Below are positions 30,713 through 56,884 of a stretch of DNA of 64,000 nt, one piece after another. Positions within the stretch are counted from its first letter, which is position 1. The number at the start of each line of letters is the position of its first letter. The stretch is from the NCBI RefSeq assembly GCF_014196425.1, contig NZ_JACIDR010000003.1:248001-312000 (forward strand), in the 5' to 3' direction. Below the pieces are notes generated by a model. That model was not told the DNA's origin and made no database searches. It saw only the letters and a list, made by a program, of their open reading frames with translations. The stretch is from Hansschlegelia beijingensis (GTDB lineage Bacteria > Pseudomonadota > Alphaproteobacteria > Rhizobiales > Methylopilaceae). Both the position numbers and the translations under genes were made by a program.

Positions 30713-31597
30713 TCACCCCTCCCGGACGGACGGACGGAACGGCGCGGCGGAGGGAAGCGCGCGCGAAATGAACTGCGCAAGATGCTCGGCGGCGTCCGAG
30801 ACGCCCGCGGGGCGGCGCAGCAGCACAAGGCCGATGCCGGGAAGCGACGGCATGCCTTCTTCCTCGCCGAGCCGCCGCATGCCGGGCGAGACGGCGCATT
30901 GCGGGAACACCGAGACCGCGAGGCGGGCCAGCACCGCCGCCTGAAGCCCGGCGATCGTGTCGCTCACGGTGCGGATCGCCCATTTGCGCCCGACCGACGA
31001 CAGCGCCTCGAGCGCGCGCTGGCGATAGACGCTGCCGGCGGGCAGCACCGCGAGCGGCGTCGGGTCCGCAAGCTCCGGCCGCGCGCCGCGCGCCGCGACC
31101 CAGACCAGCGGTTCGCGGCGCACGATCTCCCCGCCCTGAAGGTCCGGCTGCTCAGTCAGGATCGCGATGTCCAGGCGATCGCGCATCAACTCGGAGTGCA
31201 GATGCACGCTGCGCCGGCAGTGCAGCTGGATCTCGACATCCGGATAGGCGTGGGAGAAGCGGCTGAGCACGTCGGGCAAGAGATAGGCGGCGTAGAGGTC
31301 GGGCGTTCCGAGCATGACCTTTCCGGCGACGCTGGGCGCCGCGAAGCGGGCCCTGGCCTCCTCGGAAAGCTTCAGCATGACGCGGGCGTATTCGAGCAGG
31401 ATCTCGCCGTCGGCCGTCAGCGTGATGCGCCGGCGGTCATTGGCGAAGACCGTGCGGCCGAGCTGGCACTCCAGCCGGTTCATCTGGTGGGTGACGGCGG
31501 ACTGCGTCCGCCCGACCGCGCGCCCGCCGGAGGTGATGCTTCCGGTGTCGACGATCGCCACGAAGGTGCGCAGCAGAGCGAGGTCGAGGTCAGGCAT
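30713..31597 (-). CDS. LysR-family regulator, divergent from tctCBA
   Basis: This 294-residue protein has an N-terminal winged helix-turn-helix (MPDLDLALLRTFVAIVDTGSITSGGRAVGRTQSAVTHQMNRLE) and a LysR effector-binding domain from about residue 90. Such regulators bind the shared promoter and respond to a pathway metabolite. The gene diverges from the tripartite transporter genes 225 bases away, so it likely controls that operon. Its own ribosome binding site lies in a perfect palindrome at 31601-31617. The effector is not readable; a sulfonate is inferred from context. Confidence 0.9.
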   Translation of the reverse strand: MPDLDLALLRTFVAIVDTGSITSGGRAVGRTQSAVTHQMNRLECQLGRTVFANDRRRITLTADGEILLEYARVMLKLSEEARARFAAPSVAGKVMLGTPDLYAAYLLPDVLSRFSHAYPDVEIQLHCRRSVHLHSELMRDRLDIAILTEQPDLQGGEIVRREPLVWVAARGARPELADPTPLAVLPAGSVYRQRALEALSSVGRKWAIRTVSDTIAGLQAAVLARLAVSVFPQCAVSPGMRRLGEEEGMPSLPGIGLVLLRRPAGVSDAAEHLAQFISRALPSAAPFRPSVREG

Positions 31598-31600
31598 CCC

Positions 31601-31617
31601 GATGAAGCTCCTTCATC
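31601..31617. promoter_or_regulatory. Palindrome covering the lysR ribosome binding site
   Basis: GATGAAG-CTC-CTTCATC is a perfect inverted repeat. On the lysR strand it contains AAGGAG ten bases before the ATG. It could be an operator for autoregulation or an RNA hairpin that hides the ribosome binding site. Confidence 0.45.
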
Positions 31618-31822
31618 GTCAGGATGCACATAATGAACTTTGTTGTCTCGGGGCGCGCATGTAGCCTTTCGTGAAACGCGAGAAGGCTTGCCTTTTGGAG
31701 CAGGCTTTGCCGGCGCCTCGAAGGCGGACTTCAACCAAGAGACCCCCGGACAACGGGGCGATGCGACGTGGGCTGCGACCGGGACAACCGGCGGAAAGAC
31801 CTGCGCGCAAGGGAGGGAAGCC

Positions 31823-32779
31823 ATGAACGTCAGCAGACGAGAGGTTCTCGTCGGCGGCTCGGCGCTCGCCGCCATGTCCGTCGTGAAGCCCGCTTTCGCG
31901 GAAGAGTATCCCAGCCGGCCGATCGAACTCGTGGTCCCGTGGGGTCCGGGCGGCGGCGCGGACCAGCTCGCCAGAAAGATCGCCCAGCTCGGGGAACCGG
32001 AGATCGGCAAGCCGATGCCGGTCGTGAACATCCCCGGGGGCACGGGCGCGACCGGGATGGCCAAGATCCTCGCCAACCCCGCCGACGGCCAGACGGCGGC
32101 GATCTACATCGCGGACGCGCATGCGCTTCTCGCCGGCAAGAGCCCGCGCTGGACCATGGAGGACATCACGCCGGTCGCCGTGCTGATCCAGGCGCCTTCC
32201 TTCATCTTCGTGGCGCAGGACAGCCCCCACAAGACCTGGGACGACTTCGCCAAGGCCGCCAAGGAGCGGCCGGGCGCGCTCAAGGTCGCGACGCTCGGCT
32301 TCGGCAGCGTCGACGACTTCACGCTGAGCTTCCTCGGCTCCAAGGGCGTGAAGGTGAACCAGGTGCCGTTCTCCAAGCCGAGCGAGCGCTACGTCTCGAT
32401 CCTCGGAGGCCACGCCGACGCTCTCTACGAGCAGGCCGGCGACGTCGGCAGCTTCCTCAACGGCAAGCAGATGCGCCCGTTGCTGGTCTTCGGATCGGAG
32501 CGCTTCGCGGCGTTCCCGGACGTGCCCTGCTCGAAGGAAGCCGGCTTCAACATCGCGCTTCCGCAGTTCCGTTCGATCATCGTGCGTGGCGGCACGCCGC
32601 CGGAGCGGGTCAAGAAGCTTTCGGACGCGCTCCAGAAGGTCGCGGCCACGGACGACTACAAGGCCTTCCTCAAGGAGCAGTTCGCGAAGGACGACAGCTT
32701 CATCGCCTCGGACGGCGCAGGCGCCTTCGTGGCGAAGCAGCTCGACGACATGAAAGCCGCCATCAAGCAGGCGAGCTGA
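31823..32779 (+). CDS. tctC: Tripartite tricarboxylate transporter (TTT) substrate-binding protein
   Basis: This 318-residue periplasmic binding protein has an N-terminal signal with a twin-arginine look (VSRREVLVGGSALAAMSVVKPAFA). The mature part starts YPSRPIELVVPWGPGGGADQLAR, the hallmark of the TctC/Bug family, and continues with VVNIPGGTGATGMAKI. The ATG at 31823 follows GGGAGGG and is preferred to upstream starts. The protein delivers a carboxylate-type ligand to the TctA-TctB membrane complex encoded next. Linkage to sulfoacetaldehyde genes suggests sulfoacetate as ligand. This is inference, since Bug proteins bind diverse organic acids. Confidence 0.9.
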   Translation: MNVSRREVLVGGSALAAMSVVKPAFAEEYPSRPIELVVPWGPGGGADQLARKIAQLGEPEIGKPMPVVNIPGGTGATGMAKILANPADGQTAAIYIADAHALLAGKSPRWTMEDITPVAVLIQAPSFIFVAQDSPHKTWDDFAKAAKERPGALKVATLGFGSVDDFTLSFLGSKGVKVNQVPFSKPSERYVSILGGHADALYEQAGDVGSFLNGKQMRPLLVFGSERFAAFPDVPCSKEAGFNIALPQFRSIIVRGGTPPERVKKLSDALQKVAATDDYKAFLKEQFAKDDSFIASDGAGAFVAKQLDDMKAAIKQAS

Positions 32780-32782
32780 GCC

Positions 32783-33337
32783 ATGAATGGGGCTCCCGTC
32801 GGAGGAAGCTTCGGCATGGGCGCGCGGCTTACGCAGGCGCTTCCCTACGTCATCCTGCTCACCGTCGCCGCATGGCTGTGGTCCATCGCGAACGGCGTCG
32901 AATATGACGCGCGCCCCGACGCGCTCGGCCCCGCCTTCTGGCCCAAGGCCGCGCTCGTGCTCATCGGCGCGATGTCGGTGTTCCAGATCGCCCGGACGCT
33001 GATGTCCTCCTCCGACGACGAAGCGGTCGGCATCGCCGCCGGGCTGGAGGAGGAAGAGGACGATGCGCCCCGGCGTCCGCTTCTTCTCGCCCTCGGCGTC
33101 GGACTGACGATCATCTACGCCCTGACGCTCGACACCCTCGGCTTTCCGGTCGCGACCGCCGCCTTCCTGATCGCCTTCATGTATGTGGGCGGCGCCCGCA
33201 ACCATGTCGCGATCTGGGCCTCGAGCCTGATCGGCGTCGCCGTGACGGCGCTGCTTCTCATGCGCGTCGTCTACGTCTCCCTGCCGCGCGGCGTCGCGCC
33301 GTTCTCGGGCGTCTCCGACTTCATCACCAGCTTCTGA
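32783..33337 (+). CDS. tctB: TTT transporter small membrane subunit TctB
   Basis: This 184-residue protein has four hydrophobic segments (about residues 20-37, 50-68, 97-125 and 140-160), the usual topology of TctB. The segment DARPDALGPAFWPKAALVLIGAMSVFQI matches the family's GPGF/AFWP motif. An acidic loop EEEEDDAPRR separates helices two and three. It follows tctC by three bases and precedes tctA by twelve, so the three form one transcript. Confidence 0.87.
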   Translation: MNGAPVGGSFGMGARLTQALPYVILLTVAAWLWSIANGVEYDARPDALGPAFWPKAALVLIGAMSVFQIARTLMSSSDDEAVGIAAGLEEEEDDAPRRPLLLALGVGLTIIYALTLDTLGFPVATAAFLIAFMYVGGARNHVAIWASSLIGVAVTALLLMRVVYVSLPRGVAPFSGVSDFITSF

Positions 33338-33349
33338 GGAGGGCCGATC

Positions 33350-34915
33350 GTGATCGAGATCTTCGCCCAACTCGGCGACGGCTTCATCGCCTGTCTCCAC
33401 CCGACGACCATGCTGATGCTCCTGCTCGGCATCGTCGTGGGCCTGCTGGTCGGCGTCCTGCCGGGCCTCACCCTCGTCATGGGCGTCGTTCTGTTCCTGC
33501 CCTTCACCTACAAGATGCAGGTGACCGACGCGATCGTGCTGCTGAGCGCGATGTACGTGTCCGGCACCTATGGCGGGGCGTTCACCTCCATTCTGTTCCG
33601 AATACCGGGCGAGCCGATCCACGTGCCGCTGCTCTGGGACGGCTACGCCATGGCGCGCAACGGCCAGCCCGCCCGCGCGCTCGGCTGGACGCTGGTCGCG
33701 GCGCTGGTCGGCGGCCTGCTGTCAGCCGTCGCGATGGTGATGCTGACGAAGTCGGTCGCAAGCTTCGCGCTGCGCTTCTCCTCGCCGGAATATTTCGCGA
33801 TCCTCGTGTTCGGCCTGACGAGCGTCATCGCCCTCGGGTCTGGCTCGCTCGCGAACGCCGTCATCGGCCTCGCGCTCGGGCTGCTGATCGCCTCGGTTGG
33901 AACAGACCCGATCTACGGCGCCGCCCGGTTCACCTTCGACATGCCGATCTTCGCGGACGGCATCGAGTTTCTCGTCGTGATGGTGGGCGCCTACGGCGTG
34001 GGCGAGGTGCTGTCGCGCCTCGAGCGCGGCTTCTCCAGCAAGCCGCTCGCCACGATCTCCTCGACCAAGACCGAGCTCCCCAGCCTCGCCGAGGTGGGCC
34101 AGGTCAAGGCCATGCTGCTGCGCTCGACGGTGGTCGGCCACATCATCGGCATAATCCCCGGCGCAGGCGCGACGGTCGCGGCCTTCGTGGCCTACGGTCT
34201 GGAGAGCCAGTTCGGCCGCCGCCGCGCGCAGATGGGTTCGGGCGTCGTCGAAGGCATCGTCGCGCCCCAGAGCGCGGCGACCGCCTCGGTCGGGGGCGCG
34301 CTGATCCCGCTGCTCGCGCTCGGCATCCCCGGCAGCGGCGCGACCGCGGTGATCCTCGGCGCCTTCATGCTGCACGGCATCCAGCCCGGGCCGCAGATCA
34401 TGATGACCTCGTCCGCGATGGTCTACACGATCTTCGCGTCGATCTTCATCGGCATCGCCATGATGTGCGTGCTGGGCTACTTCGCGATCCGGCCGCTCGT
34501 GAAGATCCTCGACTTTCCGGAGGCGATCGTCTCGGCCTTCGTGATGCTGTTCTGCTTCGTCGGCGCGCTGGCGATCCGCAGCAACGTCACCGACCTCTGG
34601 CTGATGATCGGCTTCGGCGCGCTCGGTTACCTGTTCGAGCGCTACAAGTTCCCGATCGCGCCGCTGGTGCTCGGCGTGATCCTCGGCCCGCTCGCCGAGG
34701 AAAGCTTCATGAACTCGATGATCAGCTTCTCGAACGACTGGACCGTGTTCTTCACGCGGCCAATCGCCGGGACCGTGATGGCGCTCGCCATCCTGACCCT
34801 GTCGCTGCCGATCATCGGGCTGATCCGCAACCGGCGAAAGCCGAGCGGTCCGCCGTCCGCCCCGCAGCTGTCGTCCGTCGGCGGCGCAGAGCGGGTCCTG
34901 ACGCCCGAAGCCTAG
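33350..34915 (+). CDS. tctA: TTT transporter large membrane subunit TctA
   Basis: This 521-residue permease has about eleven or twelve membrane helices. Conserved TctA motifs are visible: VGLLVGVLPGLTLVMGVVLFLPFTY, SGTYGGAFTSILFRIPGEP and the second half repeat IGIIPGAGATVAAFVAYGLE with LALGIPGSGATAVILGAF. These glycine/proline-rich repeats line the substrate path. The start is a GTG at 33350 preceded by GAGGAGGG. It completes the transporter whose binding protein is tctC. A small frame and the acylating dehydrogenase follow on the same strand. Confidence 0.94.
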   Translation: MIEIFAQLGDGFIACLHPTTMLMLLLGIVVGLLVGVLPGLTLVMGVVLFLPFTYKMQVTDAIVLLSAMYVSGTYGGAFTSILFRIPGEPIHVPLLWDGYAMARNGQPARALGWTLVAALVGGLLSAVAMVMLTKSVASFALRFSSPEYFAILVFGLTSVIALGSGSLANAVIGLALGLLIASVGTDPIYGAARFTFDMPIFADGIEFLVVMVGAYGVGEVLSRLERGFSSKPLATISSTKTELPSLAEVGQVKAMLLRSTVVGHIIGIIPGAGATVAAFVAYGLESQFGRRRAQMGSGVVEGIVAPQSAATASVGGALIPLLALGIPGSGATAVILGAFMLHGIQPGPQIMMTSSAMVYTIFASIFIGIAMMCVLGYFAIRPLVKILDFPEAIVSAFVMLFCFVGALAIRSNVTDLWLMIGFGALGYLFERYKFPIAPLVLGVILGPLAEESFMNSMISFSNDWTVFFTRPIAGTVMALAILTLSLPIIGLIRNRRKPSGPPSAPQLSSVGGAERVLTPEA

Positions 34916-34955
34916 TCGACACGTCAGCAACCGCGTTCCGGGAGGAAGACGAGCC

Positions 34956-35120
34956 GTGCCCATCGTTCGGAAACAGACAAGCCGCCTCGCGCCCGGCATG
35001 GGCGAAGGGCCGGCCTTCCCGACCGCGACGCGCGCGCTCGCGAACCGGCTGCGGGCCATCCGACGCTTCATCGCGCCGGGCCAAGGCGCCGCCGCGCCCG
35101 TCGCCCCGTGCGCCGCCTGA
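34956..35120 (+). CDS. Possible 54-residue basic small protein between tctA and sauS
   Basis: A GTG-led frame (VPIVRKQTSRLAPGMGEGP) is preceded by GGGAGGAAG at normal spacing and ends 23 bases before the dehydrogenase start. The product would be basic and soluble, with RALANRLRAIRRFIAPGQ as its helical part, and has no family that I recognise. It could equally be an untranslated spacer that happens to stay open in GC-rich sequence. The good ribosome binding site and the position inside the operon are the only support. Confidence 0.3.
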   Translation: MPIVRKQTSRLAPGMGEGPAFPTATRALANRLRAIRRFIAPGQGAAAPVAPCAA

Positions 35121-35143
35121 TACGACACCGACAGGAGACCCCC

Positions 35144-36571
35144 ATGAGCTTGGCCGCAGTCGAAGCCGGCGCCGCGCCGGACCCGCAGGAGGTGGTCGGC
35201 GCCCTCATGCGCCGGGCCCGCGCCGCGCAGGAAGCCTTCGCGGACGCCGACCAGGCCCGCGTCGACGAGGCGGTGCGCGCGCTCGCCTGGTCGCTCTACA
35301 AGCCCGAGCACGCGCAGGAGCTCGCGACGCTCGCCGTCGAGGACACCGGCCTCGGCAATGTGCCCGACAAGGTGATCAAGAAGCAGCGCAAGACCTTCGG
35401 GACCCTGCGCGACCTGCTGCGCGCCAAAACCGTCGGCGAGATCGAGCGCGACGAGGCGAGGGGGATCGTGAAGTTCGCCAAGCCGCTCGGAGTGGTGGGC
35501 GCTGTGACGCCCTCCACCAATCCGGGCGCGACGCCGGTCAACAAGGCCATGATGGCGATCAAGGGCCGCAACGCGATCATCATCGCGCCGTCGCCGCTCG
35601 GCCACCGCACCACCGAGAAGGCCGTGAACTTCATGCGCGAGGCGCTCGAGGCGATCGGCCTGCCTGCCGACCTCGTGCAGATCCTGCCGGCGCCGATCAC
35701 CAAGGAGGTGACGCAGGCGCTGATGAGCGCGGTCGAACTCGTGGTCGTCACCGGTTCGCAGGACAATGTCCGCCGCGCCTATTCGAGCGGGACGCCCGCG
35801 ATCGGCGTCGGCGCCGGCAACGTGCCTGTCATGATCGACGAAACCGCCGATCTCGACGCCGCCGCGCGCAAGATCTGCGCGTCGAAGATCTTCGATAACG
35901 CCACCTCGTGCTCGTCCGAGAACGCCGTCGTCATCGTGGACGCGGTCTATGACGCCGCGATCGCCGCGCTCGAACGGGCGGGAGGCTTCCTTGTCGACCC
36001 GGGCCTGAAGGACAAGGTCGTCGGCGAACTCTGGAAGAACGGCAAGCTCAACCGTCACCTCATCGCGCGCGACGCCGAGACGCTCGCGACCGCCTTCGGC
36101 CTGCCGGAAGAAGCCCGGCGGTCGCGCTTCTTCATGGTTGAGGAGACCGGCGTCGGCCGCGGCTACCCGCTCTCGGGCGAGAAGCTCGCGCTGGTGCTCA
36201 CCGTCTATCGCGCCGCCGACTTCGAGGCCGCCAAGGCCAAGACCCGCGAGATCCTGGAGCTCCAGGGCAAGGGGCATTCGATCGGCCTGCACACCACGCG
36301 GCCTGAGCGCGCGCGGGAGCTCGCGGAGGAGATGCCCGTGGTGCGTGTTCTGATGAATTTCGCGCACACCTTCGGGAACGGAGGAGGCTTCGACAGCGGG
36401 CTCGAGTTCACGCTCTCGATGGGCTGCGGCTCCTGGCAGAAGAATTCGCTTTCTGAGAACCTGAACTACCGCCACTTCATCAACATCACCCACCTGGTGA
36501 CGCCGATCCCGGAGGACAAGCCGTCCGAAGAAGCTTTGTTCGGCCCCCACTGGACCAAGTACGGGAAGTAA
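35144..36571 (+). CDS. sauS: CoA-acylating sulfoacetaldehyde dehydrogenase (SauS-like)
   Basis: This 475-residue member of the acylating aldehyde dehydrogenase branch (EutE/AdhE-like) has a candidate catalytic Cys256 in DNATSCSSENAVVIVD, the form seen in SauS. It also has the cofactor region VVGAVTPSTNPGATPVNKAMMAIKGRNAIIIAPSP and late FNFAHT-like VRVLMNFAHTFGNGGGF. SauS reduces sulfoacetyl-CoA to sulfoacetaldehyde with NAD(P)H. The ATG at 35144 follows AGGAG and is preferred to 35108. Immediate neighbours are a two-subunit CoA ligase and, further on, Xsc. That makes sulfoacetate use the best reading, although other short acyl-CoA substrates are possible. Confidence 0.8.
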   Translation: MSLAAVEAGAAPDPQEVVGALMRRARAAQEAFADADQARVDEAVRALAWSLYKPEHAQELATLAVEDTGLGNVPDKVIKKQRKTFGTLRDLLRAKTVGEIERDEARGIVKFAKPLGVVGAVTPSTNPGATPVNKAMMAIKGRNAIIIAPSPLGHRTTEKAVNFMREALEAIGLPADLVQILPAPITKEVTQALMSAVELVVVTGSQDNVRRAYSSGTPAIGVGAGNVPVMIDETADLDAAARKICASKIFDNATSCSSENAVVIVDAVYDAAIAALERAGGFLVDPGLKDKVVGELWKNGKLNRHLIARDAETLATAFGLPEEARRSRFFMVEETGVGRGYPLSGEKLALVLTVYRAADFEAAKAKTREILELQGKGHSIGLHTTRPERARELAEEMPVVRVLMNFAHTFGNGGGFDSGLEFTLSMGCGSWQKNSLSENLNYRHFINITHLVTPIPEDKPSEEALFGPHWTKYGK

Positions 36572-36576
36572 CGCCG

Positions 36577-37704
36577 ATGAAACTCGAAGAACATGCGGCG
36601 AAGTCGGTCGTGCTGCGCCCGGCTGGCGCGCCGATCGGGAACGCGCGTCTCTGCGCGAGCCCGGAAGAGGTGGCGGAGGCCGTCCGCGCGATCGGTCCGG
36701 CGGTTGTGAAGGCCCAGGTGCCGAGCGGAAAGCGCGGCAAGGCTGGCGGCATCAAGGTCGCGGAAACGCCGGAGGAGGGCGCGGAGGTCGCCAGCAAGAT
36801 CCTCGGCATGACGATCGGCGGCGACGTTGTCGAGCGCGTGCTCGTCGAGGAGAAGGCGGCGATCGCCCGCGAGTTCTACGCCGCGGTGCTGATCGACGTC
36901 GCGAACCGCAGCCCGCTGGTGCTGTTCTCCACCGAGGGGGGCATGGACATCGAGGAGGTCGCGCTCGACCGGCCGGACGCCATTCGCCGCCATGTGGTGG
37001 ATGTGCTGGAAGGCTTCGGCGAGCCCGAGGCCCGGGCGATGCTGCGCGGCCTCGAGCTCGGTTCGGCGGAGGCGGGCGTCGTCGATATCCTGGCGAAACT
37101 CTACCGGATCTTCCGCGAGCGGGACACCGAGCTCGTCGAGATCAATCCGCTGGCGGAGCTCAAGGACGGGCGCGTGGTGGCGCTCGACTGCAAATTCGTC
37201 GGCGACGACGCCTCCCGGGACCTGCAGCCCGAGATCGCGGCCGCGGCGACGCCGGACAAGCAGACCGAACTCGAAAGGCGGGGCGCGGAGGTGGGCCTCA
37301 AGTTCATCCAGCTCGACGGCGATGTGGGCGTGCTGGCGAACGGCGCCGGCCTGACGATGACCACCATGGACGTCATCAACCACGCCGGCGGCCGGCCGGC
37401 GAACTTCCTCGAGATCGGCGGCGAGGCCTACACCAAGGCCGAGACCGCGCTCGATCTCGTGCTGTCGAACCCCGGCGTGAAGAGCCTTGTGGTGAACTTC
37501 TGCGGAGCCTTCGCGCGCACCGACGTCATGGCAGAGGGCGTGGTGAAGGCGTGGGAGACGCTGAAGCCCAGCGTGCCGGTGTTCTTCTCGATCCACGGCA
37601 CCGGCGAGGACGAGGCGGTGGCGCTGGTCCGCGACCGGCTCGGGCTGGAACCCTACGATCTCATGGAGGACGCGGTGAAGGCCGCGGTCGAGGCGGCGCA
37701 ATGA
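36577..37704 (+). CDS. ADP-forming acyl-CoA ligase beta subunit (SucC-like), probably sulfoacetate-CoA ligase
   Basis: This 375-residue ATP-grasp subunit is homologous to succinyl-CoA synthetase beta and malate thiokinase. Landmarks are VVKAQVPSGKRGKAGGIKVA in the nucleotide domain, LVEINPLAELKDGRVVALDCKF for metal binding and LDGDVGVLANGAGLTMTTMDVINHAGGRPANFLEIGG in the C-terminal domain. It starts five bases after sauS, and its stop overlaps the next start (ATGA). A TCA-cycle role is unlikely because it is embedded with sauS, ackA and a transporter. Activation of sulfoacetate at the cost of one ATP is inferred. Malate-CoA ligase is the main alternative. Confidence 0.78.
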   Translation: MKLEEHAAKSVVLRPAGAPIGNARLCASPEEVAEAVRAIGPAVVKAQVPSGKRGKAGGIKVAETPEEGAEVASKILGMTIGGDVVERVLVEEKAAIAREFYAAVLIDVANRSPLVLFSTEGGMDIEEVALDRPDAIRRHVVDVLEGFGEPEARAMLRGLELGSAEAGVVDILAKLYRIFRERDTELVEINPLAELKDGRVVALDCKFVGDDASRDLQPEIAAAATPDKQTELERRGAEVGLKFIQLDGDVGVLANGAGLTMTTMDVINHAGGRPANFLEIGGEAYTKAETALDLVLSNPGVKSLVVNFCGAFARTDVMAEGVVKAWETLKPSVPVFFSIHGTGEDEAVALVRDRLGLEPYDLMEDAVKAAVEAAQ

Positions 37705-38570
37705 TCTATCGCAGCGGACAGAAGGTCCTCGTCCAGGGGATCACGGGCAAGCAGGGGACGTTCTGGTCCCAGAAGATGATGGAGATGGGCACGTCCGTGG
37801 TCGCAGGCGTGAACCCCAAGCGCGCCGGCGAGACCCATCTCGGCGTGCCGGTGTTCGCGAGCGCGGTCGAAGCCACCAGACAGATCGCGTGCGACATCTC
37901 GGTGATCTTCGTGCCGCCGATGCTGGCGCGCGACGCGATCGTGGACGCGATCGACGCCGGGATCGGGTGCGTCGTCGTGCTCACCGAGCACATCCCGGCG
38001 CAGCACGTGCTGGAGATCCACGCGCGGGCGAAACGCGCCGGCTGCCGGATCGTCGGGCCGAACACAGCCGGCATCGTGACGCCGGGCGAGGGCTTCGTCG
38101 GGATCATGCCGGGTCACAACCCCAACATCTTCAAGCCGGGCCATGTCGGCGTCATCTCGCGCTCGGGCAGCCTCGGCACGCTGATCTGCCTGAACCTCAC
38201 GCGCGCGGGCCTTGGGCAGTCGGCCTTCATCGGCATCGGGGGCGACCCGATGATCGGCACGACGACCCGCGACGCGCTCGAGGCGCTCGACCGCGACGAG
38301 CGCACCCACGCGATCGCGATGATCGGCGAGATCGGCGGGACGATGGAGGAGGAGGCGGCCGAATACGCCAGGACGATGCGCAAGCCGATCGCCTCCTTCA
38401 TCGCCGGGCGCTCGTCTCCTCCGGACAAGAAGATGGGCCATGCGGGCGCGATCGTGACGGGCGGCCGCGGCGGCTACGCCTCGAAGCGCGAGGCGCTCGA
38501 GCAGGCGGGCGTCCGCGTCGTCGACACGCCGCACGAAATCGCCATCGCGCTTGCGGGCGTCTACGCTTAA
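37701..38570 (+). CDS. ADP-forming acyl-CoA ligase alpha subunit (SucD-like)
   Basis: This 289-residue partner subunit binds CoA and carries the phosphorylated histidine. VLVQGITGKQGTFWSQKMMEMGT is the CoA-binding Rossmann start, and His247 in KKMGHAGAIVTGGRGG is the phosphohistidine. RIVGPNTAGIVTPGE and GVISRSGSLGTLICLNLTRAGLGQS are further family motifs. The ATG overlaps the beta-subunit stop. The GTFW-x-KMMEMGT form differs from the usual TCA enzyme (GTFH-x-QQ) and resembles malate thiokinase-like or specialised ligases. Together with the beta subunit it would make the acyl-CoA consumed by SauS. Confidence 0.78.
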   Translation: MIYRSGQKVLVQGITGKQGTFWSQKMMEMGTSVVAGVNPKRAGETHLGVPVFASAVEATRQIACDISVIFVPPMLARDAIVDAIDAGIGCVVVLTEHIPAQHVLEIHARAKRAGCRIVGPNTAGIVTPGEGFVGIMPGHNPNIFKPGHVGVISRSGSLGTLICLNLTRAGLGQSAFIGIGGDPMIGTTTRDALEALDRDERTHAIAMIGEIGGTMEEEAAEYARTMRKPIASFIAGRSSPPDKKMGHAGAIVTGGRGGYASKREALEQAGVRVVDTPHEIAIALAGVYA

Positions 38571-38655
38571 AAATGCTCGAATAAGAAGGCGCGCGGCGGA
38601 GTCGTCGCCGTGCGCAGCCCCCTTCTGGCGCAGTCTCCTCAGAACAAGAGGCATC

Positions 38656-39861
38656 ATGGCGGATCCGGTCATCCTGGTCCTCAATGCGGGCTCCTCGAGC
38701 GTCAAGTTCGCGGCTTATGAGGCCGGTCCCGAGGGGCTGGGATCTGCGCGCTGGCGAGGGCAGGTCGAGAACATCCCGGACGATCCGTCGCTTACGCTTT
38801 CCGAAGACGACCGCCGCGTGGTCGACGGCGAGAAGCTCAGAGCCTCCGGGGTCACGGGCCACGCCGACGCGGTGCGGGTTTCGCTGAAGCGGCTGTTCGC
38901 CCTGTTCGGCCGCGAACGGCTGATCGCGGCGGGCCATCGCGTCGTCCACGGCGGGGCGGAATTCGGCGCGCCGGCGCTGGTCGACGACGCGACCTTCGCG
39001 CGTCTCGAAGCCCTGATCCCGCTCGCGCCGCTTCATCAGCCGCACAATCTCGCGGGGATGCGCGCGGTGGCCGAGGTGGCGCCGGGCCTGCCGCAGGTCG
39101 CGTCCTTCGACACGAGCTTCCACCGCACCATCCCGGCCGTCGCCTACACCATCGCTCTGCCGAGGGAGCTCCGCGAGAAGGGTCTCAGACGCTACGGCTT
39201 CCACGGCATCTCCTACTCCTACATCGCGAGCCAGCTGCCGAAGCGGCTGTCGGAGGCCGAGCGCCGCCGGGTGGTCGTGGCGCATCTCGGCAATGGCGCC
39301 AGTCTCTGCGCGATGCGCGACGGCAGGTCGGTCGAGACCACCATGGGCTTCTCCGCGCTCGACGGCCTGCTGATGGGCACGCGCTGCGGCCTGCTCGATC
39401 CCGGCGTGCTGCTCTACCTGATGCGCGAGCGCGGCGATGACGTCGAAAGCCTCGAGGACCTGCTCTATCGCCGCGGCGGCCTTCTGGGCCTGTCCGGCGT
39501 CAGCGCAGACATGCGCAAGGTGCTGGCGAGCGAGGAGCCGGATGCGCGGCTGGCGGCCGAGCAGTTCGTCTACCGCATCGTCCGCGAGGTCGGAGCGATG
39601 GCGTCCGTTCTCGGCGGCCTGGACGCGCTGGTGTTCACCGCCGGGATTGGCGAGCACTCGGCGGAGATCCGCGAGCGCGTCTGCGCCGGGCTCGCCTGGC
39701 TCGGCCTGTCTTTCGACCGTGAAGCCAGCGCGCGGTCGGCCGAGCGCATCAGCGCCCCGGGCAGCCGGGTCGCGGCCTTCGTGATCCCGACCGACGAGGA
39801 GGGCGTCATCGCCCGCGACGCCGCAGCGCTCGCAACGCAGCAGCTGGAGCCGGTGGGTTAG
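38656..39861 (+). CDS. ackA: Acetate kinase
   Basis: This 401-residue enzyme interconverts acetyl phosphate + ADP with acetate + ATP. It has LVLNAGSSSVKF at the start, GHRVVHGGAEF, FDTSFHRTIPAVAYTIALP, RRYGFHGISYSYI and FTAGIGEHSAEIRER, all family landmarks. The ATG at 38656 is placed right before the first strand. Xsc releases acetyl phosphate, so an acetate kinase in this cluster lets the cell recover the ATP spent by the CoA ligase. Most described Xsc clusters use phosphate acetyltransferase (pta) instead, and no pta is present in this window. A bidirectional terminator follows. Confidence 0.93.
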   Translation: MADPVILVLNAGSSSVKFAAYEAGPEGLGSARWRGQVENIPDDPSLTLSEDDRRVVDGEKLRASGVTGHADAVRVSLKRLFALFGRERLIAAGHRVVHGGAEFGAPALVDDATFARLEALIPLAPLHQPHNLAGMRAVAEVAPGLPQVASFDTSFHRTIPAVAYTIALPRELREKGLRRYGFHGISYSYIASQLPKRLSEAERRRVVVAHLGNGASLCAMRDGRSVETTMGFSALDGLLMGTRCGLLDPGVLLYLMRERGDDVESLEDLLYRRGGLLGLSGVSADMRKVLASEEPDARLAAEQFVYRIVREVGAMASVLGGLDALVFTAGIGEHSAEIRERVCAGLAWLGLSFDREASARSAERISAPGSRVAAFVIPTDEEGVIARDAAALATQQLEPVG

Positions 39862-39935
39862 GGGCGGCTGCGCCTGCCGCCGGACCCGCAGGCCCGGATG
39901 ACGATCTGGGGCGTCGGCGCACCTCGAAAACGAAA

Positions 39936-39961
39936 ACGGCCCGCCTCGTAAGGCGGGCCGT
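39936..39961. terminator. Bidirectional terminator between ackA and the MHS transporter
   Basis: ACGGCCCGCCT pairs with AGGCGGGCCGT around CGTA. A A-rich run lies before it and CTGTTTC after, so it can serve both convergent transcripts. Confidence 0.85.
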
Positions 39962-39985
39962 CTGTTTCTGATAAGGCCGCTCCCG

Positions 39986-41311
39986 TCAGGTCGTGGCCGT
40001 CTTCAATTCCGCGCGGAGCTCGTCCGGCTGCTTCGCCGCGGTGCGCATCGCCATGGCGCAGCCCATGCTGACGAGCGCCGCGAACACGACATAGGCGCAG
40101 ATCAGCCAGGGCTGGCCGCCGCCCTTCGCCAGGAGCCAGGTCGCGATGATCGGCGTCAGGCCCGACGCGAAGATCCCGGAGAACTGGTAGACGAACGAGA
40201 TGCCGGTGTAGCGCACGTTCGCGTCGAACAGGTCCGCGAACAAGGCGGCCTCGGGCCCGTAGCAGACGGCGTAGACGATGCCGAACGGGATCACGATGCC
40301 GAGCGCGACCATGAAGGGGTCGCCGGTGCTCATCAGGTAGAAGGACGGATAGGCGCAGATCGCGAGCAGCAACGATCCGAGCGCGTAGGTCTTCGGCCGC
40401 CCGAGCCTGTCGGACAGTTTTCCGGCGAGCGGGATGGCGAAGATCATCACGAAGGCCGCGAGCGTCACGAGCCAGAGCGCGGTCGTGCGCGGGATGTTCA
40501 CGTTCTTCGACAGATAGACGACCGAGAACACCGCGAAGATGTTGAAGAACACCCCGTCGATGTAGCGCGCTCCCATGCCGAGCATGATGTTGCGCGGATA
40601 TTTCTTGATCATGTGGATGAAGGGCACGTCGGCTTCCTTGCCGGTTTCCTTCACCTTCGCGAATTCGGGCGTCTCGAGCACCTTGAGGCGGATGTAGAGG
40701 CCGACCGCCACAAGCAGGATGCTGAGCAGGAAGCCGACCCGCCAGCCCCAGGACATGAACTGCTCGTCCGGCAGGCTCGACATGATGGCGACGACGCCCG
40801 AGGCGAGGCAGAGGCCGAGCGCCAGGCCGATCTGGGGAAGGCTGGCGTAGAAGCCGCGCTTTTCCTTGGGCGCGTATTCATAAGCCATGAGCACCGCGCC
40901 GCCCCACTCGCCGCCGATGCCGATGCCCTGCAGGATGCGCATCAGGAGCAGCAGCAGCGGCGCCGCGATGCCGATCTGCTCGTAGGTCGGGATGAGGCCG
41001 ATGATGACCGTCGCGACGCCCATGATCATCAGCGTCATCACCAGCATCGACTTGCGGCCGAGCTTGTCGCCGAAATGGCCGAACACCACGCCGCCGAGCG
41101 GACGCGCCACGAAGCCGACCGCGAAGGTCGTATAGGCAAGCATCGTCGACACGACGGCGTCGTCGGTCGGGAAATAGAGCTTGTTGAGCACGATCCCCGC
41201 CACGATGCCGTAGAGGAAGAAATCGTACCATTCGATTGTTGCGCCGATGACGCTGGCGGCGACGACGCGCCTCAGGTCACTGTTGGATACGCTCTGCGCG
41301 CCCTCCGCCAT
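39986..41311 (-). CDS. MHS-family MFS transporter (organic acid or sulfonate:H+ symporter)
   Basis: This 441-residue protein has twelve predicted membrane helices. Its opening SVIGATIEWYDFFLYG, the loop FGHFGDKLGRKSML and LMRILQGIGIGGEWGGAVLMAYEYAP are typical of the metabolite:H+ symporter branch (ShiA/ProP-like) of the major facilitator superfamily. Its place between ackA and a beta-hydroxyacid dehydrogenase, near xsc, suggests import of a C2 sulfonate such as isethionate, or export of a product. The substrate is inferred from context only. Its 5' side holds a perfect palindrome at 41399-41416. Confidence 0.87.
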   Translation of the reverse strand: MAEGAQSVSNSDLRRVVAASVIGATIEWYDFFLYGIVAGIVLNKLYFPTDDAVVSTMLAYTTFAVGFVARPLGGVVFGHFGDKLGRKSMLVMTLMIMGVATVIIGLIPTYEQIGIAAPLLLLLMRILQGIGIGGEWGGAVLMAYEYAPKEKRGFYASLPQIGLALGLCLASGVVAIMSSLPDEQFMSWGWRVGFLLSILLVAVGLYIRLKVLETPEFAKVKETGKEADVPFIHMIKKYPRNIMLGMGARYIDGVFFNIFAVFSVVYLSKNVNIPRTTALWLVTLAAFVMIFAIPLAGKLSDRLGRPKTYALGSLLLAICAYPSFYLMSTGDPFMVALGIVIPFGIVYAVCYGPEAALFADLFDANVRYTGISFVYQFSGIFASGLTPIIATWLLAKGGGQPWLICAYVVFAALVSMGCAMAMRTAAKQPDELRAELKTATT

Positions 41312-41398
41312 GTCTTCCCCTTTGGGTTTCCTCTTGCGTCCGCTCGCATTGCGTCGCCGGCGTTTGCGCCGATCTGGACTGCGGGGACTTGGTTGTGG

Positions 41399-41416
41399 CC
41401 GGACATGCGTGTCCGG
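41399..41416. promoter_or_regulatory. 18-base perfect palindrome upstream of the MHS transporter
   Basis: CCGGACA-TGCG-TGTCCGG is a perfect inverted repeat 87 bases before the transporter start. Candidate operator; it could also be a transcribed hairpin. Confidence 0.4.
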
Positions 41417-41569
41417 ATCGTCCGGGAGGCGGAGGCGCGCGACGACAGCGGCCGGGCCACGCGTGGCGCGGCGGCGTCCCCGTCACGATCGTGTTGGAGC
41501 TCGATCATCCACCCCGTCCCCAGAACCTCGCGATGCTGCGATGGGGTCGTGATCGAGTCAACGTGAAAC

Positions 41570-41597
41570 GAGACGATATGTCTCACTGAATGAGACA
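41570..41597. promoter_or_regulatory. Overlapping palindromes, probable operator of the dehydrogenase/transporter pair
   Basis: TGTCTCA-CTGAA-TGAGACA (41579-41597) is a perfect 7-5-7 inverted repeat. It overlaps a second one, GAGAC-GATAT-GTCTC (41570-41584), so three GAGAC half-sites alternate in direction. This is the layout expected for cooperative binding by a dimeric regulator of the IclR or GntR type. Confidence 0.6.
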
Positions 41598-41882
41598 ATG
41601 GCGAGAAAGACGGGTCGCCTGCGTCGGCGCGCGGACGTGCGGCGCGTGGCGCCGGGTTCCGGGCCGAGACGGGAGCCGGCCCGTGACGCCGACTGCGCGC
41701 TGCAGAACATCAGGCGACCGATCCACAAAACTGGAGTTGTTGCTTCGTCCGAGATCCGAAAAACCGGCCGGGATCACGGCTGTCTTCGCGTCGGCGGCAA
41801 AGTGGCGCCCACTGGTGCTTGGATCGCAGCTTCGCTAGACAACCACATACGCTTGGCGTCACGCCCAAAAAAGGACAGCCCA

Positions 41883-42770
41883 ATGAAAGTCGGCTTCGTC
41901 GGTCTTGGCCTCATGGGCCGCCCCATGGCGGAGAACCTGCGCAAGGCGGGTCACGACCTTTTCCTGACGAGCCGGTCGGGGGTGCCGCAGGACATGCAGG
42001 GCGAGGGCACGACGGCCTGCGCCAATGCGGCGGAGGTCGCAAGCAACGCCGATGTCGTCATCACGATGGTGCCGGACACCCCGGACGTCGAGAAAGTGCT
42101 GTTCGGCGAGAACGGCGTCGCGAGCGGCCTGTCGAAGGGCAAGCTCGTCATCGACATGAGCTCGATCTCGCCGGTCGCCACGAAGGGCTTCGCCAAGCGC
42201 ATCGGTGAGCTGGGCTGCGGCTATGTCGACGCGCCGGTCTCGGGCGGCGACATCGGCGCGAAGGCCGGGACGCTGACCATCATGGTCGGGGCGGACGACG
42301 CAGACTTCGGACGCGCTAAGCCGCTGTTCGAGGCGATGGGAAAGACCATCACGCTGGTGGGACCGGTGGGCTCCGGCCAGACCTGCAAGGTCGCGAACCA
42401 GATCATCGTCGCGCTCAACATCCAGGCGGTCTCCGAGGCGCTGGTGTTCGCCTCCAAGGCCGGCGCCGATCCGGTGCGCGTGCGGCAGGCGCTGATGGGC
42501 GGCTTCGCCAACTCCCGCGTGCTCGAGGTCCACGCCGAGCGCATGATCAACCGCACCTTCAAGCCGGGCTTCCGCACGGGGCTGCACATGAAGGACCTCG
42601 AGGTCGCGCTGTCGAACGCCCGCGCCCTCGGCGTCGCGATGCCGGGCACGGCGCTCGCCCAGCAGCTGTTCAACTCCTGCGTCGCCGCCGGCGAGATCGA
42701 CGAGGACGACTCGATCATGTGCAAGGCGATCGAGCGCCTGTCGGGCCACGAGATCACCAAGAAGAGCTGA
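41883..42770 (+). CDS. Beta-hydroxyacid dehydrogenase (tartronate semialdehyde reductase-like)
   Basis: This 295-residue NAD(P)-dependent enzyme has the nucleotide motif VGFVGLGLMGRPMAENL, the substrate loop DAPVSGGDIGAKAGTLTIMVGA, catalytic Lys169 in GSGQTCKVANQIIVALN and the late FKPGFRTGLHMKDLEVAL. These are closest in pattern to GarR/GlxR (2-hydroxy-3-oxopropionate reductase). In this neighbourhood it may instead act on a sulfonated C2 or C3 hydroxyacid or aldehyde, as the related YihU acts on sulfolactaldehyde. That is inference. The ATG at 41883 begins at the first strand of the fold; longer upstream frames are shadows. Confidence 0.82.
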   Translation: MKVGFVGLGLMGRPMAENLRKAGHDLFLTSRSGVPQDMQGEGTTACANAAEVASNADVVITMVPDTPDVEKVLFGENGVASGLSKGKLVIDMSSISPVATKGFAKRIGELGCGYVDAPVSGGDIGAKAGTLTIMVGADDADFGRAKPLFEAMGKTITLVGPVGSGQTCKVANQIIVALNIQAVSEALVFASKAGADPVRVRQALMGGFANSRVLEVHAERMINRTFKPGFRTGLHMKDLEVALSNARALGVAMPGTALAQQLFNSCVAAGEIDEDDSIMCKAIERLSGHEITKKS

Positions 42771-42779
42771 GGCGCCCCG

Positions 42780-42851
42780 GCCTCCGCCGTCGTCGCCGGG
42801 CCTGACCGGCGATCCGTCGCCCGGATCAGCTCCGGGCGTCTCGGCGGAGGC
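42780..42851. terminator. Long stem between convergent dehydrogenase and IclR genes
   Basis: GCCTCCGCC (42780-42788) pairs perfectly with GGCGGAGGC (42843-42851). The 54-base interior contains further GC-rich pairing. It fills the whole gap between the two stop codons. Confidence 0.45.
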
Positions 42852-43610
42852 TCACTCCAGCGTCCCGGCCAGCATCCGCGCCGCGTCCTGCAGCGCAGGC
42901 AGCTTCTCGAGCATCTGATCGCAGGACATGCGCGAGACCGGCGCCTGCATGGCGAGCGCCGCGACGCAGGCCGGCGAGCGGCCGATCCTCTGCATGACCG
43001 GCACGGCGAGGCAGACCAGTCCCGCCAGGTATTCCTCGCGGTCGAGCGCGTATTTCTGCTTCCGGATCGTCGCGACTTCGGCCAGCAGCGCGTCGCGGTC
43101 GGTCAGCGTGCTGTCGGTGAATCTCTCGAAGGTCAGATCACGCACCACCGCCTCGCGCCTGGCTGGCGGCATCAGCGCGAGAAACAGCTTCCCGCTCGCC
43201 GAGCAGTGCGCCGGCACCCGTGAGCCCCGCTGGAACGTGATCCTGAGCGGCCACATCGCCTCGACGCGGTCGATATAGGTCACCTCGGCGCCGTGCATCA
43301 CGGTGAGATTGCAGGACTCGCCCACCGTCTCGACCACCTTCCGCAGAAGCTGGTGCCGAAGCGCCCCGCCGGGCTGGTTCGACAGGATCGCGAAGGCGAG
43401 CTGCGAGGCGCGCGGCGCGATCTCGTAGCGCCGCCCGTCGGGCGAGCGCTGCAGCAGCCCCGCGCCGACGAGCGCGTTCAGCCATCGATGCAGCGTCGGG
43501 CGCGGCGTCTCCGAGCCGGCCGCAAGGTCCGCGAGCGTGGGCGGCTGCTCCATCGCGGCCACGCGTTCGAGCAGGGATATCGGTTTGAGGCCGCCGGCGA
43601 GATCATCCAT
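42852..43610 (-). CDS. IclR-family regulator, divergent from xsc
   Basis: This 252-residue protein has an N-terminal winged helix (TLADLAAGSETPRPTLHRWLNALVGAGLLQRSPDGRRYEIAPRA) and a C-terminal IclR effector domain. The latter shows SCNLTVMHGAEVTYIDRVEAMWPLRITFQRGSRVPAHCSASGKLFLAL. The effector domain keeps the HCSASGK-type pocket motif. It diverges from xsc with 151 bases between, and that gap carries a TTCC-N7-GGAA palindrome 20 bases from this start. Control of xsc by a sulfonate effector is the likely role. Confidence 0.9.
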   Translation of the reverse strand: MDDLAGGLKPISLLERVAAMEQPPTLADLAAGSETPRPTLHRWLNALVGAGLLQRSPDGRRYEIAPRASQLAFAILSNQPGGALRHQLLRKVVETVGESCNLTVMHGAEVTYIDRVEAMWPLRITFQRGSRVPAHCSASGKLFLALMPPARREAVVRDLTFERFTDSTLTDRDALLAEVATIRKQKYALDREEYLAGLVCLAVPVMQRIGRSPACVAALAMQAPVSRMSCDQMLEKLPALQDAARMLAGTLE

Positions 43611-43629
43611 GGCGTCCGTCTACATAATT

Positions 43630-43646
43630 ATTCCGAAAATTGGAAT
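43630..43646. promoter_or_regulatory. TTCC-N7-GGAA palindrome in the iclR-xsc gap
   Basis: ATTCCGAAAATTGGAAT has inverted ATTCC/GGAAT arms seven bases apart. The same arms and spacing occur at 47305-47321 before the GMC oxidoreductase. Probable IclR-type operator. Confidence 0.6.
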
Positions 43647-43761
43647 GCTTCGGCTCAAAATCTGACAATTGGTTGCGAAGCGTCCGCCGCCATGCGATGG
43701 GTGACCATCAAGATCGCGAGCCGGGATCGGCCACGCGACGCGCCATTGAGAGGATCGCCCG

Positions 43762-45543
43762 ATGAAGATGACGACCGAGGAAGCCTTCGTGAAAGTGCTC
43801 CAGATGCACGGCATCGAGCACGCCTTCGGCATCATCGGGTCGGCCTTCATGCCGATCTCCGACCTGTTCCCGGAGGCGGGCATCACCTTCTGGGACGTCG
43901 CGCATGAGACCAATGGCGGCCTGATCTGCGACGGCTACACCCGCACCACCGGCAAGATCGGCATGGCGATCGCGCAGAACGGCCCGGGCATCACGGGCTT
44001 CGTCACGGCGATCAAGACCGCCTACTGGAACCACACGCCGATGCTGCTGGTGACCCCGCAGGCGGCCAACAAGACGATCGGCCAGGGCGGCTTCCAGGAA
44101 GTCGAGCAGATGGCGCTGTTCCGCGACATGGTCTGCTACCAGGAGGAGGTCCGCGATCCCTCCCGCGTCGCGGAGGTGCTGAACCGCGTGATCCTGAAGG
44201 CCAAGCGCCTGTCGGCCCCGGCGCAGCTCAACATCCCGCGCGATTTCTGGACGCAGGTCATCGACATCGACCTGCCGGCGATCGTCGAGTTCGAGCGCCC
44301 GGCGGGCGGCGAGAAGGCGGTCGCGGAAGCGGCGCGGCTGCTCTCAGAGGCGAAGTTCCCGGTCATCCTGTCGGGCGCCGGCGTCGTCATCGGCAATGCG
44401 ATCAAGGACTGCGTCGCGCTCGCCGAGCGCCTCGACGCTCCGGTCTGCAACAACTACCAGCACAACGACTCGTTTCCCGGCTCCCACCGCCTGGCGGTCG
44501 GCCCGCTCGGCTACAACGGCTCGAAGGCCGCGATGGAGCTCGTCGCCAAGGCCGACGTCGTCCTTGCGCTCGGCACGCGGCTGAACCCGTTCTCGACGCT
44601 GCCCGGCTACGGGATCGACTACTGGCCGAAGGACGCCAAGATCATCCAGGTCGACATCAACGCCGACCGCATCGGCCTGACGAAACGCGTCACGGTCGGC
44701 ATCTGCGGCGACGCCGCGCAGGTCGCGCGCGGCATTCTGGCGAAGCTCGCCGACACGGCCGGCGACGCAGGGCGCGAGGATCGCAAGAACCTGATCCACC
44801 AGACCAAGTCCCGCTGGCTCCAGACTCTCTCCAGCATGGACCACGAGGATGACGACGAGGGCACCAGCTGGAACGCGGACGCCCGCGCGCGCGACGCCGA
44901 CCGCATGTCGCCCCGCCAGGCCTGGCGCGCCATCCAGGCGGGCCTGCCAAAGGACGCGATCATCTCTTCCGACATCGGCAACAACTGCGCGATCGGCAAC
45001 GCCTATCCGACGTTCGACCAGCCCCGGAAATATCTGGCGCCGGGCCTGTTCGGCCCGTGCGGCTACGGCTTCCCTGCGATCATCGGGGCCAAGATCGGCA
45101 ATCCGGACACGCCTTGCGTCGGTTTTGCGGGCGACGGCGCCTTCGGCATTTCGATGAGCGAGATGAGCTCGATCGGCCGCGAGGAGTGGCCGGGCATCAC
45201 CATGGTGATCTTCCGCAACTACCAGTGGGGAGCCGAAAAGCGGAACTCGATCCTCTGGTACGACAACAACTTCGTCGGCACCGAGCTCGACCCGCATCTG
45301 AGCTATGCGCGGGTCGCGGAAGGATGCGGCTTCAAGGGCGTGGTCGCGCGCACGCAGGCGGAGGTGACGGAAGCCATCCGCCAGTCCTGCGAGGACCAGA
45401 AGAAGCGGATCACGACCTTCATCGAGATCGTGCTCAACCAGGAGCTCGGCGAGCCATTCCGCCGCGACGCGATGAAGAAGCCGGTCAGGGTCGCGGGCAT
45501 CAACCGCGCCGACATGCGCCCGCAGGCGGGGTTCGCGGCCTGA
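43762..45543 (+). CDS. xsc: Sulfoacetaldehyde acetyltransferase Xsc
   Basis: This 593-residue thiamine diphosphate enzyme cleaves sulfoacetaldehyde with phosphate into sulfite and acetyl phosphate. The start MTTEEAFVKVLQMHGIEHAFGIIGSAFMPISDLFPEAGI is the Xsc signature and differs from glyoxylate carboligase or acetolactate synthase. GFAGDGAFGISMSEMSSIGREEWPGITMVIFRNYQWGAEKRN holds the ThDP/Mg motif (GDGAF...NN-type) with the Xsc-specific QWGAEKRN. Length equals the family norm. It is the anchor for reading the surrounding genes as C2-sulfonate catabolism. A hairpin follows. Confidence 0.95.
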   Translation: MKMTTEEAFVKVLQMHGIEHAFGIIGSAFMPISDLFPEAGITFWDVAHETNGGLICDGYTRTTGKIGMAIAQNGPGITGFVTAIKTAYWNHTPMLLVTPQAANKTIGQGGFQEVEQMALFRDMVCYQEEVRDPSRVAEVLNRVILKAKRLSAPAQLNIPRDFWTQVIDIDLPAIVEFERPAGGEKAVAEAARLLSEAKFPVILSGAGVVIGNAIKDCVALAERLDAPVCNNYQHNDSFPGSHRLAVGPLGYNGSKAAMELVAKADVVLALGTRLNPFSTLPGYGIDYWPKDAKIIQVDINADRIGLTKRVTVGICGDAAQVARGILAKLADTAGDAGREDRKNLIHQTKSRWLQTLSSMDHEDDDEGTSWNADARARDADRMSPRQAWRAIQAGLPKDAIISSDIGNNCAIGNAYPTFDQPRKYLAPGLFGPCGYGFPAIIGAKIGNPDTPCVGFAGDGAFGISMSEMSSIGREEWPGITMVIFRNYQWGAEKRNSILWYDNNFVGTELDPHLSYARVAEGCGFKGVVARTQAEVTEAIRQSCEDQKKRITTFIEIVLNQELGEPFRRDAMKKPVRVAGINRADMRPQAGFAA

Positions 45544-47266: not shown

Positions 47267-47304
47267 GTGTCTCCACCCCGGCGCATTTGAAGCGCTGCTT
47301 ATTC

Positions 47305-47321
47305 GTTCCATTCAATGGAAC
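47305..47321. promoter_or_regulatory. 17-base perfect palindrome before the GMC gene
   Basis: GTTCCATT-C-AATGGAAC is a perfect inverted repeat 39 bases from the GMC start. It shares TTCC-N7-GGAA with the site in front of xsc. Probable IclR-type operator. Confidence 0.68.
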
Positions 47322-47443: not shown

Positions 47444-47484
47444 CGCTTCCCGCATAAGGGGCGCTCTGGCGTGGGGTCGTGCGG

Positions 47485-49023: not shown

Positions 49024-49076
49024 TTTTTACCGGATCGCGTGACAGCGTTCCGCGGTCTGGAGTTGGAGAAGTCGAA

Positions 49077-55675: not shown

Positions 55676-55704
55676 TTTCCCGCCCCTGATCCTAGGAGAT
55701 CGCC

Positions 55705-56859: not shown

Positions 56860-56884
56860 GGGGCGCCGCGAAGGGAGTCCGCCC

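Follow-up and report, generated by a model that had tools for sequence, protein, structure and literature searches.

A putative C2-sulfonate island in Hansschlegelia beijingensis combining a two-subunit ADP-forming ligase, Xsc and an acetate kinase

What does an island of importer, ligase, dehydrogenase and kinase genes in Hansschlegelia beijingensis (Methylopilaceae, Hyphomicrobiales) break down, and in what form would the carbon leave it? The genes lie in a 64,000-nucleotide stretch (assembly GCF_014196425.1, contig NZ_JACIDR010000003.1, positions 248,001 to 312,000), here called the window, for which a first-pass annotation had proposed a hybrid sulfoacetate pathway with acetate kinase (AckA) in place of phosphotransacetylase (Pta). 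Comparison of sequences and gene neighborhoods across genomes lends this pathway reading good support, and we consider it very likely that the island serves C2-sulfonate catabolism through a tripartite tricarboxylate transport (TTT) importer, a two-subunit ligase (SauCD), SauS, Xsc and AckA, with a probable additional isethionate branch.

All genes named in that annotation were found, i.e., tctCBA, sauS with its SCSSEN motif, a ligase pair overlapping at ATGA, ackA and xsc. Seven of them form a single plus-strand run, tctC-tctB-tctA-sauS-sauC-sauD-ackA, with intergenic gaps of 3, 12, 228, 5, −4, and 85 bases and a divergent LysR gene at its head. The three importer subunits all exceed their Pfam cut-offs: the periplasmic binding protein TctC (31823..32779, ATG start at 31823, twin-arginine-like N-terminus; 94.8 bits, cut-off 27), the small membrane subunit TctB (32783..33337; 53.3 bits, cut-off 29.1) and the large membrane subunit TctA (33350..34915, GTG start; 439.7 bits, cut-off 28.9). 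These are followed by the acylating sulfoacetaldehyde dehydrogenase SauS (35144..36571; NF047625, 786 bits against an equivalog cut-off of 600), the SauC-type beta subunit of an ADP-forming acyl-CoA ligase (36577..37704; Pfam ATP-grasp_2 and Ligase_CoA), the SauD-type alpha subunit (37701..38570, overlapping sauC by 4 bases), whose GHAGA motif is presumably the phosphohistidine loop, and AckA, of the acetate/propionate kinase family (38656..39861; Pfam Acetate_kinase 365 bits, TIGR00016 359 against a cut-off of 293). The sulfoacetaldehyde acetyltransferase Xsc (43762..45543, plus strand; TIGR03457 962 bits, cut-off 676) is the sole match in the genome at E 1e-100. The earlier observation is confirmed, with the correction that xsc is not part of the contiguous tctCBA-sauSCD-ackA run but lies ~4 kb beyond it.

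To see how regularly these genes travel together, we compared 134 loci, namely 53 from an order sample, 80 from named genomes, and the window. SauC was present at ≥48% identity in 109 of them, leaving 105 distinct SauC loci once 4 duplicates were removed. Within ~10 kb of SauC, these loci held SauS in 101 cases, SauD in 103, TctA in 45, TctC in 48, Xsc in 50, AckA in 8, and Pta in 42. SauS directly precedes SauC in 101 of the 105, starting 0.8–1.6 kb upstream, and SauD starts ~1.0–1.4 kb downstream in 103; such conservation over 105 distinct loci excludes chance. Three of the four SauC loci lacking SauS have <0.6 kb of contig upstream, while in the fourth (L174) SauS is missing from the 2.1 kb available. 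The slot before SauS is taken by TctCBA in some loci and by a major facilitator superfamily (MFS) carrier in 20 of 105, 16 of these without TctA, and by analogy this carrier may be SauU-like. In four loci (L120, L122, L123, and L125), a TTT importer and an MFS carrier both precede SauS.

The distribution of this arrangement is patchy. In the order sample, SauS was above cut-off in 50 of 397 genomes (52 matches), and SauC lay downstream of it in 28 of the 51 loci fetched, as well as in the window; some of the others are cut by contig ends, and in two scanned loci out of the 25 without SauC the next gene encodes an AMP-binding enzyme, which fits a SauT. In the class as a whole, a SauC match at E 1e-100 occurs in 14 of 385 genomes, that of the window among them, which amounts to a scattered trait. 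SauC was seen in named genomes of Methylobacterium, Azospirillum, Afipia, Bosea, and Xanthobacter, among others, as well as in several betaproteobacterial assemblies, and the closest named SauC proteins come from a record labelled Chelatococcus sambhunathii S14 (96%) and from Hansschlegelia zhihuaiae (89%). Within the window's genus, 3 of 13 genomes (its own included) carry SauC at ≥89%, the other matches listed there being homologs of 33–38%. The idea of a unique hybrid was discarded, as the same arrangement recurs in alpha- and betaproteobacteria. Two further loci (L065 and L067, from genomes G073 and G030) pair a SauS of 71–73% identity with a divergent AckA and have no SauC match nearby; at L065, the three neighbors scanned (FAD-binding, MlaE permease, and ABC transporter) do not explain this SauC-less pairing.

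Next, we examined whether the ligase pair could be told apart from its housekeeping relatives. By context it is a two-subunit SucCD-type ligase adjoining sauS. The first-pass annotation had proposed looking in the genome for a tricarboxylic acid (TCA)-cycle sucCD, a serine-cycle mtkAB and a pta, and the first two were indeed found as separate copies: among five ATP-grasp_2 matches, four of them above cut-off, are a succinate-CoA ligase beta subunit (577 bits, cut-off 370) and a malate-CoA ligase beta subunit (PRK14046, 746 bits, cut-off 604). The SauC beta subunit falls below the cut-offs for SucC (PRK00696, 351 vs. 370; TIGR01016, 322 vs. 376) and for MtkA (PRK14046, 260 vs. 604), while the alpha subunit misses one succinate-CoA ligase model (TIGR01019, 348 vs. 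353) and passes another (PRK05678, 343 vs. 336). Since the beta subunit falls short of the curated thresholds for either enzyme and separate copies of both are encoded elsewhere, a role of the pair as the TCA- or serine-cycle enzyme was rejected. In a quick tree of the 105 SauC proteins and the three other copies in the genome, SauC separated from SucC, MtkA, and the third pair with an SH-aLRT support of 100, on outgroup branches long enough for the program to issue a warning. Of 109 alignment columns >95% conserved in SauC, 32 differ from both SucC and MtkA of the window genome, and a loop which we take to contact the acid substrate reads FCGA in all 105 SauC proteins, IFGG in that SucC and IFAG in that MtkA. 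Overall, these comparisons support the reading of a two-subunit ligase from a clade of its own, linked to SauS and in many loci to Xsc, that is present in an alphaproteobacterium alongside its own sucCD and mtkAB. The third SucCD-like pair lies at C1:897161-898225 onward (L095), its beta subunit scoring 369 against the SucC cut-off of 370, and matches with similar scores occur in further genomes of the genus.

Read in order, the genes suggest the following route. The TTT system would import sulfoacetate, SauCD would convert it to sulfoacetyl-CoA at the expense of one ATP to ADP, and SauS would reduce sulfoacetyl-CoA to sulfoacetaldehyde, from which Xsc would form acetyl phosphate and sulfite with phosphate. 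The local AckA would then yield acetate and ATP, and either Acs, which is above cut-off in all eight AckA-type genomes including that of the window, or a separate MaoC-Pta would bring the carbon to acetyl-CoA. Up to acetate, AckA would return the ATP that SauCD consumes, which agrees with the ATP-neutral entry proposed in the first-pass annotation. Acetate as the end product, however, is not implied with Acs and the MaoC-Pta/AckA pair present in the genome: to acetyl-CoA, Acs costs two further phosphate bonds, and AckA plus Acs one bond more than Pta. Because of this extra cost, an ATP-neutral entry with acetate as the product is possible, not implied.

At the acetyl phosphate step the loci differ. 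AckA and Pta never share a locus among the 105, and the 50 loci with Xsc comprise 36 with Pta, 5 with AckA, 9 with neither, and none with both; four of these nine have <6 kb of contig on one side, and in one locus scored as having neither (G402), Pta lies just beyond the flank. With kinship ignored, such a zero overlap has a hypergeometric probability of 0.0009 among the 50 loci with Xsc and of 0.014 over the full set of 105, while a lineage-aware sign test had only 2 to 4 independent pairs to work with, for which no significance is possible. AckA presence requires five changes on the SauC tree. Since the AckA tree needs only three, and in it the copies from Hansschlegelia do not group with the remaining five and deep support is weak, two or three recruitments would be the safer count.

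Many relatives carry Pta in their locus; in that of the window, AckA is the sole enzyme of acetyl phosphate that we identified, which supports in part the claim that AckA replaces Pta. This holds locally but not genome-wide: contig C1 of the same genome encodes a MaoC-Pta (PRK08190, 741 bits vs. 282) followed by a second AckA, and the search for pta thus came out against a genome-wide replacement. A genome devoid of pta was one of the candidates we dropped, given this MaoC-Pta beside the second AckA. In the window's genus, each of the three AckA-type genomes has a 471–570-amino-acid frame that matches the C-terminal part of Pta and is, in the window genome, this MaoC-Pta; the five others (G046, G397, G398, G399, and G400) have Pta-matching frames of 770–844 amino acids. 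We take the latter for a malic enzyme with a Pta-like tail because an 816-amino-acid frame in the window genome resembles such an enzyme (PRK12861, 1078 bits, short of the cut-off of 1178). No stand-alone Pta above cut-off was detected in these five genomes except for a partial 29.8-bit match in G397; G046 has an extra Pta match of 19.4 bits, below cut-off. Three genomes speak against a simple AckA/Pta rule: G410, which lacks a stand-alone Pta and also an AckA within the 16 kb covered of its locus; G399, which gave no Xsc match; and G402, with the Pta just outside its flank.

Several observations weigh against the sulfoacetate pathway as drawn here. Because the genes for an MFS carrier (minus strand), a beta-hydroxyacid dehydrogenase (plus) and an IclR regulator (minus) sit between ackA and xsc, xsc is probably transcribed separately from the sauSCD run in the window. 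Xsc is absent within ~10 kb from 55 of the 105 SauC loci, some of them interrupted by contig ends, and the whole genome of G399, which has SauC, gave no Xsc match; the window genome also retains its Pta-type gene. We infer sulfoacetate as the SauCD substrate from gene context, one succinate-CoA ligase model accepts the alpha subunit, and SauS-SauCD could run backwards, making ATP and sulfoacetate. In this last scheme, sulfoacetaldehyde derived from taurine or isethionate would be oxidized via sulfoacetyl-CoA, as by SqwD-SqwKL of a sulfoglycolysis variant, which likewise joins an acylating dehydrogenase to an ADP-forming ligase but runs toward sulfoacetate with a gain of ATP in fermenters (PMC12890257, PMC11489063). 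That the same type of enzyme pair operates in this direction elsewhere (PMC12890257) lends the scheme some credit, yet the run opens with a binding-protein-dependent importer, TctA is near SauC in 45 of 105 loci or an MFS carrier occupies the same slot in 20, and the Xsc found within ~10 kb in 50 of 105 would drain the sulfoacetaldehyde, all of which makes oxidative operation quite improbable.

Equally to be weighed is a ligase acting on another acid, i.e., 3-sulfopropionate, succinate, or malate, with its adjacency to sauS incidental. HpfX with HpfYZ, a related design, acts on 3-sulfopropionate, for which HpfYZ of the same family is specific, being inactive on sulfoacetate (PMC11489063), and the succinate-CoA ligase model passed by the alpha subunit points the same way. 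Such a substrate is nonetheless very hard to reconcile with a SauS that immediately precedes the pair in 101 of 105 loci, with the separate sucCD and mtkAB from which the beta subunit is distinct, and with an Xsc that handles a C2 aldehyde, and we regard it as highly unlikely. The AckA step calls for more caution: here the kinase might be an overflow enzyme that drifted beside sauD, acetyl phosphate being processed via the MaoC-Pta encoded elsewhere. The MaoC-Pta and second AckA on contig C1, the 2 to 4 independent pairs that cannot reach significance, and the weak deep support in the AckA tree all leave room for this; against it, AckA appearing by SauC needs five changes on the SauC tree (though only three on the AckA tree), AckA never occurs together with Pta in a locus, and the five AckA-type genomes outside the genus are without stand-alone Pta save the partial match in one. 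We thus see an overflow role as a serious possibility for this step, if not the probable one, and retain the sulfoacetate route through SauCD, SauS, and Xsc with AckA as its likely local outlet.

How far is this route new? Cupriavidus necator shares with the window SauS followed by Xsc, but differs in its single-chain SauT ligase, MFS carrier SauU, and Pta. Xsc and Pta are reportedly used there after SauST, in work attributed to Weinitschke et al. from 2010. Its sauST genes are described together with SauU (PMC12625764). Bilophila wadsworthia (SauXYZ and SauSCD, reported by Liu et al. in 2023; described in PMC12625764, PMC12890257) resembles the window at the entry, with a TTT importer, an ADP-forming two-subunit ligase and SauS; the window has Xsc and AckA where Bilophila converts sulfoacetaldehyde to isethionate (TauF) for radical cleavage by IseG. 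The sponge symbiont OTU3 (Arenicellales, Gammaproteobacteria) has sauSCD with a TTT carrier, for which Bilophila is cited, and sauSCD was present in 3 of 99 non-sponge bins (PMC12625764). Both xsc and pta are also reported from the OTU3 genome, which differs from the window in being gammaproteobacterial and in having Pta rather than AckA, and which is known from gene content only. AckA as an alternative to Pta after Xsc has been published for taurine users (PMC5320631), such as Roseovarius sp., in which AckA and an acetate-CoA ligase are named in place of Pta, but the entry compound is taurine and not sulfoacetate. Within the open-licence library searched, no paper contained both sulfoacetate and acetate kinase. 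Taken together, a TTT importer with sauSCD is not new in kind, and the combination of SauCD, Xsc, and AckA, in which an activation known from an anaerobic gut microbe would meet terminal reactions of oxygen-using bacteria, is a little-described variant.

The breakdown of sulfoquinovose from plants yields sulfoacetate, and taurine can be another source of it (PMC12890257, PMC12625764). We propose tentatively, with slightly more doubt than confidence, that alpha- and betaproteobacteria of soil and plants have in SauCD-Xsc a main aerobic route for sulfoacetate that is largely undescribed, closed separately by AckA in at least two lineages with an ATP-neutral entry to acetate. The loci suggest that the ligase route, demonstrated experimentally in an anaerobic gut bacterium, extends to genera cultivated aerobically, such as Methylobacterium, Azospirillum, Afipia, and Bosea. 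If so, these would offer cultivable strains for a direct comparison of ADP- with AMP-forming activation, and of AckA with Pta.

A second entry to sulfoacetaldehyde, on which the first-pass annotation was silent, may be provided by the genes around xsc. The MHS-type MFS carrier (39986..41311, minus strand; TIGR00883 421 bits, under the cut-off of 443) and a GMC oxidoreductase (45647..47311, minus strand; GMC_oxred_N and GMC_oxred_C) have counterparts that stand side by side on one strand, with 25–195 bases between them, in 17 of the 18 loci holding both. The window is the eighteenth, with the two genes 4.3 kb apart on the same strand and split by xsc and its neighbors. IseJ is a membrane-bound flavin isethionate dehydrogenase that operates together with Xsc, IseU is described as a putative MFS carrier (PMC6453916), and we regard the GMC enzyme and the MFS carrier as candidate IseJ-like and IseU-like proteins, respectively. 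They would probably import isethionate and oxidize it to sulfoacetaldehyde, forming an isethionate module. One result counts against this assignment: the GMC protein passes the choline dehydrogenase subfamily model (PRK02106, 628 vs. 605), and not the betA equivalog (TIGR01810, 523 vs. 732). For the sulfite made by Xsc, a SoxC-type sulfite dehydrogenase encoded on contig C1 may be the outlet (C1:345518-346006, L229; TIGR04555 547 vs. 420); the next gene is small and encodes a CxxCH heme motif.

The remaining genes of the island are mostly regulatory. The LysR-family regulator (30713..31597, minus strand; Pfam HTH_1 and LysR_substrate) diverges from tctC, similar divergent LysR genes head the run in many relatives, and it is a candidate sulfoacetate sensor. 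One IclR-family regulator (42852..43610, minus strand; IclR_C 129 bits) is divergent from xsc, and a second (47479..48255, plus strand; IclR_C 126 bits) from the GMC gene. The beta-hydroxyacid dehydrogenase (41883..42770, plus strand; 3-HIBDH family, NAD_binding_2 and NAD_binding_11) has a counterpart adjoining IclR and xsc in H. zhihuaiae too, and we know of no role for such an enzyme in C2-sulfonate breakdown. Further along, positions 49071-57757 encode an amidohydrolase, the large and [2Fe-2S] subunits of a molybdenum hydroxylase, and a branched-chain-type ABC binding protein and permease, which together look like a separate catabolic cluster.

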